In this document: piece by piece, positions 30,580-39,307 of the stretch
Layout of the letters: every line of letters starts with the position of its first letter
Numbering within the stretch: the first letter of the stretch is position 1
NCBI GenBank assembly: GCA_003220495.1
Contig: QHSP01000067.1
Span: 1 to 40,978 of the forward strand
Direction: 5' to 3'
From: Candidatus Rokuibacteriota bacterium
GTDB taxonomy: Bacteria > Methylomirabilota > Methylomirabilia > Rokubacteriales > CSP1-6
DNA: 40,978 nucleotides
Made by a program: the position numbers and the translations under genes
The notes under the pieces: model-generated
Database searches by the model: none
What the model was told of the DNA's origin: nothing
The model's input: only the letters and a program-made list of their open reading frames with translations

Positions 30580-31910
30580 GTGGGGCGCGTCCACAGCGCT
30601 GGCGTTCAGAGTCGCGAGCCGCGCGGCCGTCGGCTCCAGGCTCCCGCTTCGGGGATCCGCCATCTTTCCGATCCAGCTTCATCACGGTGGCGAGGTTGTT
30701 GAGGTCTCCCGCGGCGATCACATCCCTTTTGCTGTCCAACGCCACCGCACGGCCTTCACCACCGACGAGGGACTGGCGCCACAGCTCCGCTCCGTTGGCT
30801 CCATCGACCTTTATCACCACGAACTGGTGCATGGCGCCGCCCGTGAAGCCTGTCGCCACGACATCCCGTGCTCGATCGACCGTGACCGCCGTGGCCGCGC
30901 CACCTGGAATGACATGCAGCCACACCTCCGCGCCACTGGCGCCGTCAAGCTTGACTACGGTAAAGTCCGTTCCAGCCCTTGTTGAACCCGCGGCAACCAC
31001 GCTGTCGTCCTCATCCACCGCGACCGCCCGGCCCCCGCCTACAGGATTCGCCCCAATCTGTCGACGCCAAAGCTCGAATCCGCTGACGCCGTCGTATTTG
31101 ATCACCATGAAGGTTGGTCTGGCCCCCGGGTTCGTAATGCCAACCGCCACGACGTTCGCGGCTCCATCGACCGCAACCGCCTGGGCTGCCGGGAAAATGC
31201 TGTCGTTGGACGCATCAGTGGCCTGGCGCCACAACTCGGCCCCGCTCGCCCCGTCAAACTTGATCACCGTCCACGCATGAAGGATGGACCGCCGCCGCCG
31301 TCGCGTAGTTGATGTGCCCAGCCCCCTTGATCGCCTGACGCCACAGCTCGGTCCCCCTGGACCCATCGACCTTGATGACGGTAAAGTCACTGCCACTCGG
31401 GGTGTTGATACGACCGGCGGCCACGACATCCCCTTCTCCATCCACCACGACCGCAGCGGCCATGCCAGTCGCCCCGTCGCCCACTATGACCTGGCGCCAC
31501 AGTTCCTCTCCGCTCACCCCATCGAACTTGATCACAATAAAGGACGGTCCAGTTGCGAGGGTACGTATGGCGCCCGCCGCCACGACATTCCCATCCTCGT
31601 CCACCGTCACCGCGTTTGCGCCGCCACCCGGAATGACCTGGCGCCACAATTCTGCCCCGCTGGTCCCGTCCAGCTTCACCACGGTGAAGTCGTTGCCAGT
31701 GTCGGTGTTGGTCGTAGCGCCTGCTGCCACCACGTTCCCGCATCCATCGACCACCGACGCATTGAACACACCACCGCCAGCAGTACCAGAAATGTCTGTC
31801 TGCCAGGCCCAGACCTCAGTCCTCGGGTAGAAAAAGACGAGGCCATAGGCGACGAACAGGGCGACGAGAGACATTGCCGGTGTGACGGAAACACGCGTTC
31901 GGCCAGTCAT
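30554..31910 (-). pseudogene. WRQ-repeat beta-propeller-like secreted protein gene, broken by a frameshift
   Basis: Two reading frames carry one repeat protein. The 5' part (31910-31254) has a signal-anchor (SLVALFVAYGLVFFYP) and three repeats of about 45-50 residues of the type VDxxGNVVAAG...FTVIKxDGxSGAELWRQ. It then runs into a stop shortly after ATAAAV. A different frame continues from about 31280 (AWTVIKFDGASGAELWRQ) with four more repeats down to 30554. At the junction about 16-20 residues of one repeat (the VDGxGDVVAAG half) are missing together with the frame change, so a small deletion is likely. The last 45 residues leave the repeat pattern and overlap the kinase gene. The repeats resemble PQQ/SBBP-type propeller blades. 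It could be a true decaying gene, a phase-variable locus or an assembly fault. Confidence 0.65.
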
Positions 31911-36526: not shown

Positions 36527-39307
36527 TCAGCGACTCGCCGGCGCGCGGTGCTCGAGCTTTCGCAGGGCGGCCGCGACGTCGATACGTCCACTGAGCACCG
36601 GCGCCATCGGGTCGCCGATCTTCTCCAAGCGCGCCGGCGCCGTCTTGATCGTGAAACGCGCGGGATCGAGCTTCGCGGTGACCTCCTCCCAGCGGAGCGG
36701 GCACGAGACCGGCGCTCCCGGCAGCGGGCGCGCCGAGAACGGCGCGACGACCGTCTGGCCCCGGCCGTTCTGGCCGAAGTCGATGTAGACCTTGCCGCCG
36801 CGCGAGCGCAAGGGCCGCGCGATCGTCGAGATCTCGGGCTCCGCCTCGACGCCCATCGCCGCCAGAAGCCGCGCGAAGGTCCGCGTGACCTCGTAGTCGT
36901 AGCCGGCGCCGAGCGGCAGGACGATGTGGAGACCGGTCGCTCCGGAAGTCTTCACGTAGCTCGGCAGGCCGAGCCCGTCCAGGATGGAATGGAGCGCGCG
37001 CGCGACCTTGACGACGTCGGTGAACGGCGCGCCCTTGGGATCGAGATCGAGCACGAGCCAGTCCGGATTGTCGAGCGACGCCAGTCGCGAGCTCCAGAGG
37101 TGGAGGGGGATCGTGCCGAGATTGACGACGTAACGAAGGCTCTCGCGATCGTCGACGATGAAATAGTCGATGTCCCGGTCCACATCGTTGGCGTGGATCC
37201 GCTCGGTCCGGAGCCACGACGGCGTCCATTCGGGCGCGTCCTTCTGAAAGAAGGACTTCCCCGTGATCCCGTCGGGATACCGCGTCAGCACCAGCGGCCT
37301 ATCCTTCAAGTACGGAAGCAGCCACGGCGACACCGCCTCGTAGTACTCGACCAAATCCGACTTCGTATACCCCTCATCCGGCCAGAACACCTTCGACGGA
37401 TTGGTGATCGTCACCCGCCTCTCGTCAGCACCGACAAGAGCCGGCTCTCCGCTCACGCGCTTGTCATCCGCAGCGCTCGTGCGCCGCCCCTTTCCCATGT
37501 TCGTGCGCCGGGGATCCGACTTTCGGCTCGCTTCGGGCGTTGAATCACCGCTTTCTGAGGTCGATGCACGATCGCCCGACCCACCGCGTGGCGAGGAGGC
37601 CGGGGTGGGGGGGACGGGGCGGGCGGAGTGGGACCCTCTCGTCCCGCCCGCGGCTCGAAGAGCCGCGGAAAGCGGGCGAGCGGGTGACGCAGCCCGCCCC
37701 GTCCCCCCCACCCCGGCCTCCTCGCCACGCGCCACGACGGACGTCTCGCGCACGCAATCCTCGGGACGTTTGTCATCACGTAACCCGAGGAAAGACGGAT
37801 GTCGGATGCCGCCGTCGCGTGTCCACTCGGTGAAGCGAATCTCGCCCACGATTCTCGGCTCGACCCAGTGGTGGCCGCGCCCGCCGGGCGTGCCGCGCGC
37901 GAACGGTGAGGTCGGCCGCTCGAGCGGACGAAGCTTCTCGCTGATCGTCTTGAGTGTCCGCTCGTCGAACCCCGTGCCGACCTTGGAGACGTAGACCAGC
38001 TCGCCCTTGTCGTAGAGACCCAGGTGCAGCGCGCCGAAATGCGCCCGCGTGCCCTGTGGCACCGTGTAGCCGCCGATCACGAACTCCTGCCGGAGCTGAC
38101 ACTTGATCTTCAGCCAGTCCCGCGAGCGTTTCGCGGCATAGGTGCTGTCGCGCTTCTTCGCGACCACGCCTTCCAGCCCCTGCTCGCAGGCGGCGGCGAG
38201 AAAGTCCGCGCCGTGCTCCAGCACGTGGTCACCGAAGTAGACGACGCCGCGCGGCGGCACCAGGAGCCTCAGGCACTCCTTGCGCGCCTCGAGCGGCAGC
38301 CGACGGAGATCGCGGCCGTCGAGAACCAGCGCGTCGAAGAAGACGGCGCTGACCGGCACGACGCCCCGCGCGCGCTCGACGTCGGCCGGGCGCGTCAGGC
38401 CCATGCGCTCCTGGAGCCGCTGGAAGCTCGAGCGCCCGCGCTCGTCGAGCGCCACGATCTCGCCGTCCAGGACGAAGCTCGTGAGCGGCAGCGCGTGCAG
38501 CGCCGCCGTCACTTCGGGATAACGGGTCGTGACGACCTGGCCGCTGCGACCGCGCAGCTCGATCTCGTCACCGGCGCGCGAGGCGAGGACGCGGATGCCG
38601 TCGTACTTGATCTCGAAGAGCCACGACGGGTCCGACGGCGTCTCGTCGACGAGCGTCGCGAGCATCAGCAGATCGCCCTGCGGCGTGATCTCGCCGCGCG
38701 GCGCCTTGAGCTCGGTCAGGCGCCGACGCAACGTCTCGACCCGACTCGCGCCGTCGCGCAGCTCTTCGATCGTCAGCCCCGAGAGCACCGATTCGGGATA
38801 GCGCTCGGTCGGCTCCGTCTCGCCGGCGTATTCGTCGGACTTCTTCAGGAGGAGCCAGTCCCGGTCCTTGCCGCTCATCCGGGCCAGGGTCCATCGCCCC
38901 TTCAGCTTGTAGCCGAACAGCTCGAACTCGAGCTTGCCGCGCGCGATCTGCTCGCTGGCCGGCTCTGGTTTCAGGAGCTGGAACCGGCCGGCGTCCCACA
39001 CGATCGACGGCCCGGCCCCATAGCTGCCCTCGGGAATGACGCCTTCGAAGTCGGCGTACTCGATGGGATGGTCTTCGACGTGCACGGCCAGACGCTTCTC
39101 GTGCGAGCGCACCGAGGGCCCCTTGGGCACGGCCCAGCTCTTCAGCACGCCGTCGATCTCCAGCCGCAGATCGTAGTGGAGCCGGCGCGCCGAGTGCTTG
39201 TGGATCACGAACCGGCTGCCGCCGGCCGGGCCGGGCCCGCCGAAGGGCTCGGGGGTCGCGGCCGGATCGCGCTTGCGCCGGTACTCCTGGAGGTCGCGGC
39301 TAGCCAC
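36527..39307 (-). CDS. ligD: NHEJ DNA ligase D (phosphoesterase-ligase-polymerase)
   Basis: A 926-residue multi-domain NHEJ repair enzyme in the order PE-LIG-POL. The 3'-phosphoesterase part has FVIHKHSARRLHYDLRLE and HVEDHPIEYADFEGVIPEGSYG. The ATP-dependent ligase has the AMP-accepting Lys234 in FEIKYDGIR, FVLDGEIVA and EGVVAKK. After a linker, the primase/polymerase part has FWPDEGYTKSDLVEYY, the catalytic pair in LVLDLDP, and SGATGLHIVLPL. The linker (about residues 526-575) is encoded by a 147-bp palindromic element and is low-complexity (Gly/Ala/Pro/Arg), unlike the rest. The GTG start at 39307 overlaps the stop of the upstream CPBP gene by eight bases. LigD works with Ku, which is encoded divergently just beyond that gene. 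Confidence 0.97.
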   Translation of the reverse strand: MASRDLQEYRRKRDPAATPEPFGGPGPAGGSRFVIHKHSARRLHYDLRLEIDGVLKSWAVPKGPSVRSHEKRLAVHVEDHPIEYADFEGVIPEGSYGAGPSIVWDAGRFQLLKPEPASEQIARGKLEFELFGYKLKGRWTLARMSGKDRDWLLLKKSDEYAGETEPTERYPESVLSGLTIEELRDGASRVETLRRRLTELKAPRGEITPQGDLLMLATLVDETPSDPSWLFEIKYDGIRVLASRAGDEIELRGRSGQVVTTRYPEVTAALHALPLTSFVLDGEIVALDERGRSSFQRLQERMGLTRPADVERARGVVPVSAVFFDALVLDGRDLRRLPLEARKECLRLLVPPRGVVYFGDHVLEHGADFLAAACEQGLEGVVAKKRDSTYAAKRSRDWLKIKCQLRQEFVIGGYTVPQGTRAHFGALHLGLYDKGELVYVSKVGTGFDERTLKTISEKLRPLERPTSPFARGTPGGRGHHWVEPRIVGEIRFTEWTRDGGIRHPSFLGLRDDKRPEDCVRETSVVARGEEAGVGGTGRAASPARPLSAALRAAGGTRGSHSARPVPPTPASSPRGGSGDRASTSESGDSTPEASRKSDPRRTNMGKGRRTSAADDKRVSGEPALVGADERRVTITNPSKVFWPDEGYTKSDLVEYYEAVSPWLLPYLKDRPLVLTRYPDGITGKSFFQKDAPEWTPSWLRTERIHANDVDRDIDYFIVDDRESLRYVVNLGTIPLHLWSSRLASLDNPDWLVLDLDPKGAPFTDVVKVARALHSILDGLGLPSYVKTSGATGLHIVLPLGAGYDYEVTRTFARLLAAMGVEAEPEISTIARPLRSRGGKVYIDFGQNGRGQTVVAPFSARPLPGAPVSCPLRWEEVTAKLDPARFTIKTAPARLEKIGDPMAPVLSGRIDVAAALRKLEHRAPASR
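37585..37731. repeat. 147-bp palindromic element inside the ligD linker (perfect 40-bp inverted arms)
   Basis: Bases 37585-37624 and 37692-37731 are perfect reverse complements over 40 bases, 67 bases apart. The centre holds a smaller hairpin (37648-37668; 9-bp stem CCGCGGCTC/GAGCCGCGG, loop GAA). The four bases CCAC abut each arm (37581-37584 and 37732-37735), as a short target-site duplication would. The element is 49 codons long, has no stop in the ligD frame, and is also open on the opposite strand, where the arms encode the same peptides (RGEEAGVGGTGRA and ARPVPPTPASSPR). It resembles in-gene palindromic elements such as the RPEs of Rickettsia, though I know of no match. No second copy is seen in this window. 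Confidence 0.85.

Follow-up and report, generated by a model that had tools for sequence, protein, structure and literature searches.

A palindrome in the linker of ligD

The window, by which we mean the whole stretch of 40,978 nucleotides that was analysed, comes from an uncultured soil bacterium of the GC-rich Rokubacteria. It contains a ligD gene that carries a long palindrome within its reading frame. The features that matter here are the following:

36527-39307, minus strand: ligD, 926 aa, PE-LIG-POL, carrying the palindrome in frame
37692-37731, minus strand: 5' arm (in the sense of ligD and of the core), G-rich, perfect over 40 bp
37625-37691, minus strand: class A core of 67 bp, the dispersed repeated unit (blastn of the core and covariance model)
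37648-37668, minus strand: inner 9-bp hairpin of the core, CCGCGGCTC-GAA-GAGCCGCGG, whose pairs covary among copies
37585-37624, minus strand: 3' arm (same sense), C-rich, perfect over 40 bp
37732-37735, no strand assigned: CCAC adjoining the arm, with its direct-repeat partner at 37581-37584

The geometry described in the first-pass annotation, two perfect 40-bp arms separated by a 67-bp spacer with an inner 9-bp hairpin, was confirmed: the arms are exact reverse complements, and the whole 147-bp element scores as 72-nt arms of 81% complementarity. It is the strongest hairpin of the window and the sole one that reaches the scan threshold; when folded as ligD-sense RNA it reaches -163.2 kcal/mol, compared with -98.9 on average for shuffled sequences (z -12.4). 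The element corresponds to ligD residues 526-575 and lies between the ligase C-terminal domain and the Pol domain as assigned by Pfam (LigD_N 36-143, DNA_ligase_A_M 226-402, DNA_ligase_A_C 421-513, LigD_Prim-Pol 648-901). Because the domain order of LigD is PE-LIG-POL, this site is the LIG-POL linker, as had been proposed, and such a position fits the suggestion that an insert would be tolerated there. Both strands of the element are open, and the peptides RGEEAGVGGTGRA and ARPVPPTPASSPR can indeed be read on each. The CCAC tetranucleotide does abut both arms, but the target duplication that it might have represented is not upheld across relatives, for of the ligD copies compared only those of the window and L023 have it at either end. 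Elsewhere in the window, at 30753-31689, there are seven direct repeats of 72 nt, imperfect and about 112-162 nt apart, which probably belong to a repeat-domain protein.

Palindromes at the same site in related ligD genes

Among the 79 LigD loci gathered as relatives of the window's ligD, a hairpin scan detected inverted repeats in the LIG-POL linkers of the window and of 13 Rokubacteria loci from other assemblies, and none at the scan threshold in the other linkers scanned. These palindromes fall into three classes: class A (window, L015, L016, L023), class B (L017, L018, L019, L042, L052, and L028 as a remnant without the 5' arm) and class C (L020, L021, L022, L024); the palindrome of L025 is unrelated to all three. 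Every sampled LigD of the window's clade has a palindrome at the linker site, L028 as its remnant, so that the idea of a recent insertion into ligD had to be given up. In L028 (4560-4756, AR26) the distal part of the class B core and the 3' arm are kept, the 5' arm is lost and the frame is shifted, through either a deletion across the hairpin or an assembly collapse. The LigD of L019, on a contig labelled Actinobacteria AC_69, is 98.5% identical to that of Rokubacteria L017, and the contig is probably a mis-binned Rokubacteria contig.

In a LigD tree built without the linker, the class A clade is nested in a grade of class B, and class C occupies sister lineages. The outer arms of the class A and class B ligD copies resemble each other (mean score 10.3 vs 3.8 at other loci, with 0 of 5000 random sets as high). 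Since A is nested in B and the outer arms of the two are alike, the core has been exchanged within ligD while the outer part of the palindrome stayed in place: the ligD core of the window's genus went from B to A with the outer arms remaining homologous.

In ligD genes of other lineages (L039, L043, L050, L061, L090) the linker has a different short hairpin with TPSPLRGEGxGEG-type repeats. These were left out of the palindrome count; their presence at this position implies that the LigD linker gathers palindromes repeatedly.

The core as the dispersed unit

The first-pass annotation had taken the arm for the repeated unit. Patterns of the arm sequence, however, hit only the window within its own genome, and 58 relatives gave no convincing match; the arms are private to each copy, and it is the spacer that recurs instead. 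With the spacer plus 5 bp of arm as the query, dozens of copies were found. Half of the outcome that the annotation had named as fatal to its idea, an arm that occurs nowhere else together with relatives that share the palindrome, was therefore observed, and it is the core search that rescues the idea of a dispersed element. A covariance model of class A recovered 22 copies in the window's own genome, 27 in the congener G007, 10, 5, 12 and 12 in G003, G006, G021 and G029, respectively, and 6 in G046, which belongs to another family of the class. The cores of classes B and C are likewise dispersed, with 29-41 and 4-18 matches per genome, respectively, in the five genomes tested for each; a sixth genome (a 2.2-Mb bin) has class B in its ligD copy only.

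In the window's genus the class A core has the consensus of roughly TCCGTCACCCRCTCGCCCGAATCGCAGCTCTTCGAGCTGCGGGCGGGACGAGGGGGTCCCACTCC. The arms of most of these copies are 25-50 bp long and near-perfect, and a few copies (e.g., L128, L130, L140) are armless; beyond the first ~20 bp from the core the arms of different copies have little in common except G-richness. The dispersed copies of classes B and C have private arms as well. What is conserved across families is the internal-loop core, and the pairs of its inner hairpin covary among copies, with 13 cells changed on both sides and 0 of 500 shuffles as high. Nearly all class A cores of G007 (L146-L163, L194-L205) have CCCA at a point where CCCG predominates among their orthologs in other species, as if the dispersed copies of a single genome had changed in concert.

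None of the 13 ligD loci matched an Rfam family at gathering score, and the Rfam scan of the window gave sub-threshold microRNA-shaped matches only. A likeness of the antisense core to the ends of a T-box (GUGGGACC..CUCGUCCC) was dropped after no T-box model matched. The literature search turned up no account of repeats of this type in Rokubacteria.

Genomic placement and copies within proteins

Nearly all copies lie just after stop codons, the 5' arm starting at a median of 15 nt past the upstream stop. With gene calls from a simple codon model, the 80 class A copies are distributed between tandem genes in the sense (31) or antisense (11) orientation, convergent genes (27) and divergent genes (3), seven more being inside genes and one at a contig end. 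The 31 to 11 preference among tandem genes hints at a role in transcripts and is no more than suggestive, because orthologous copies were counted separately.

The suspicion that an in-protein palindromic element comparable to those of Rickettsia is present in a high-GC lineage was borne out by copies that stand in frame in other proteins. In G007 class A is found in a radical-SAM protein (L200), a membrane protein (L203) and a POR/DUF6537 protein (L204). Class B is found antisense in a TPP enzyme (L240) and class C, also antisense, in the ComEC proteins of two species (L272, L273); a further copy, L268, is in a protein without a Pfam match. According to Pfam, the radical-SAM, POR and TPP proteins have their inserts between domains; in the two ComEC proteins the insert falls within the metallo-beta-lactamase domain, at the same point in both. 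At the radical-SAM locus the site is empty in seven congeners, where the insert of about 126 nt is absent and there are ~14 residues in its place. At the position of class A in the POR/DUF6537 gene of G007, the congeners L275, L276 and L282 have a different short hairpin, GAGGGTTCACGGGGCTTCGGAACCCCACTC; here, too, one core may have been exchanged for another.

Across copies the core is translated in all three sense frames (SPARPLSAALRAAGGTRGSHS, SVTHSPESQLFELRTGRGGPT and PSPTRPNRSSSSCGPDEGVPL), the copies grouping as window/L015/L016, L023/L204 and L200/L203, and also in antisense in the ComEC proteins and the TPP enzyme. Conservation must therefore act at the nucleic-acid level, and the phasing by which the window's copy encodes the same arm peptides on both strands, previously thought to be built for insertion in either orientation, is incidental.

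Origin of the family

The repeat family may have begun as a MITE. In its full form this explanation holds that a transposase recognising terminal inverted repeats moves whole elements and that the private arms are those of old, decayed copies, and we regard it as possible but rather doubtful. As expected of a MITE, the copies of G021 and G029 have ATTATTCRCGAACGG-like terminal inverted repeats, and their conservation reaches as far as 60 nt to either side of the core; the same ends are found, full or half, in L141, L146 and L210 of the window's own genus. Such shared ends were not seen in most class A copies of that genus. Moreover, decay predicts that complementarity is lost, yet arms of unrelated sequence are near-perfect, and MITE transposases act at the ends of their elements, while here it is the centre that is conserved. 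No matching transposase was identified; an exact-match scan of viral contigs, bearing on a parent transposon with the same ends, gave hits on 5 contigs. A MITE origin is thus possible but leaves the arms unexplained.

Another way to account for private arms is that the element consists of the core only. The 65-90-bp core would be transmitted or exchanged by invasion or replacement of the tip of a hairpin, and each copy would both grow and maintain its long perfect arms from local DNA, also within genes, by template switching that the core induces. We consider this somewhat unlikely.

How the arms stay complementary

The ligD orthologs of class A allow the evolution of the arms to be followed over graded distances. 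Between the window and L015, 12 of the 40 arm pairs differ, nine of them by double changes that keep a Watson-Crick pair; the corresponding numbers are eight and six between the window and L016, and 15 and 10 between L015 and L016. The divergence at four-fold sites of ligD in the same three comparisons is 0.23, 0.28 and 0.33, mostly C to G. The arm pairs thus change about as fast as single neutral sites do, most changes being matched on both arms. By our own calculation, arms that drift independently should have ~40-55% of their pairs changed, nearly all of them broken, with about one double Watson-Crick change per 40 pairs. Over the same distances the ligD core changes at only 4-6 of its 67 sites, and something beyond neutral drift must therefore hold it.

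Selection for RNA pairing could in principle maintain such arms if the palindrome were a functional RNA hairpin, acting as a 3'-UTR terminator or stabiliser at most loci and as a translational pause in ligD. The location of copies just downstream of genes, the class A orientation bias, the internal-loop core conserved across families, the very stable fold and the covarying inner hairpin all speak for an RNA function. The pattern of substitutions in the arms does not. In the 99 copies of classes A, B and C, 3940 of 4254 stem positions (93%) are Watson-Crick, and among the remainder A-C mismatches (88) outnumber G-U pairs (53), the reverse of what RNA-pairing selection predicts. Many of the paired changes are swaps from G-C to C-G, which bypass G-U, and the neutral rate of pair changes, the antisense copies inside genes and the failure to match any Rfam family at gathering score also argue against this explanation, which we find improbable. 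Paired changes at the neutral rate together with scarce G-U pairs would be expected if, during replication, one arm serves as the template for its partner, and the upkeep of the arms is probably achieved at the DNA level by replication template switching.

A proposed explanation

Two further possibilities can be dealt with briefly. Placement downstream of genes and in-frame copies resemble REPs (PMC3733652), and the family could be imagined as a REPIN-like element mobilised by a RAYT (Y1 transposase); however, there is no GTAG tag, and PF01797 was found in none of the nine genomes of the genus, although the same search finds matches elsewhere in the class, which makes the idea very improbable. 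RAYT mobilisation at present is ruled out for the genus on these nine draft genomes. As for chance or an artefact of assembly, including the artefactual second arm that the first-pass annotation had considered, high GC does raise chance pairing, but the z of -12.4, the inverted repeats that 13 ligD loci of other assemblies have at the same linker site, their arms being different, and the dozens of copies with a conserved core leave this with a negligible probability.

We consider it likely, though by no means certain, that the palindrome in the ligD linker is a copy of a dispersed REP/MITE-like element whose arms are kept complementary at the DNA level. A non-coding Rokubacteria element of this kind would have arrived in the LIG-POL linker no later than in the ancestor of the window's genus and would have been inherited ever since. 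A flexible linker and the lack of in-frame stops in the GC-rich element presumably made it tolerable, and it may be neutral for the protein. The conserved core would be the functional or transmissible part. Most likely, its hairpin makes the replication fork switch templates. A change in either arm would thereby be transferred to its partner, and the palindrome may grow outward as far as a gene boundary or a constraint on the protein allows. Some observations speak against this explanation. The arms are strongly G-rich on the 5' side, which means that they cannot be simple copies of the flanking DNA and that some bias or selection is required as well; the sense preference of class A among tandem genes and the slow change of the core also count against it.

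The family has implications beyond ligD. The in-frame habit is seen in a GC-rich phylum across several proteins, including the NHEJ ligase LigD and the DNA-uptake protein ComEC, and the family bears on the origin of new peptide linkers. The dozens of differing arm pairs, most of them near-perfect and spread over species of graded divergence, constitute a natural experiment in which template switching can be weighed against selection as the keeper of perfect palindromes.

Comparison with known systems

The best-known in-frame palindromic elements are those of Rickettsia and some REPs. RPE-1 of Rickettsia measures roughly 100-150 nt. In the part of the literature that deals with them, RPE-1, RPE-4 and RPE-6 are presented as dispersed palindromes that are found in frame in protein genes, in tolerant regions (PMC3733652), and palindromes of this kind lose their repeat identity over time (PMC6649704). 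The Rokubacteria family shares with them the dispersed palindromic repeat, the in-frame copies in several protein genes (ligD, radical-SAM, POR, TPP enzyme, ComEC) and, at the radical-SAM gene, an empty site in relatives. It differs, as far as descriptions can be compared, in that only the core is shared while the arms are private and near-perfect, and it belongs to an unrelated lineage.

REPs are mostly located directly 3' of genes, between convergent or tandem genes, and some are in frame in linkers and in DNA-repair genes, e.g., the DNA ligase of O. terrae (PMC3733652). The Rokubacteria copies have the same 3'-of-gene placement, and their core holds an unpaired CGTC. REPs of the GTAG and CGTC superfamilies have 5-13-bp stems, 2-20-bp loops and a tag at one end, and those of the CGTC type a terminal CGTC tag, an 8-9-bp stem starting with AT, a 4-5-bp loop and a CCA-like tail (PMC3733652). 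In the Rokubacteria element, by contrast, the CGTC is in an internal loop inside 20-50-bp arms, the stem and loop differ from the CGTC type, and the core and arm sequences have no terminal GTAG tag with a short stem. Bacterial MITEs are alike in size, in dispersal and, for some Rokubacteria genera, in terminal inverted repeats; the conserved centre and private arms are unlike them.

For the arms themselves, the nearest parallels come from further away. Mitochondria of Nematomorpha have perfect inverted repeats within genes, both arms being coding, and conversion or template switching was proposed to keep the arms identical (PMC6649704); no shared dispersed core is described for these palindromes, whereas the Rokubacteria palindrome surrounds a repeat family. 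Template switching has been described as a way to arrive at perfect, co-evolving stems; its signature, multi-base compensatory changes without a G-U intermediate, was studied in rRNA and microRNA genes (PMC8794818). The Rokubacteria stems are much longer than those hairpins and belong to a bacterial repeat family. In its habit this family resembles the palindromic elements of Rickettsia, and it is distinct from them by its conserved core and its private, co-evolving arms.
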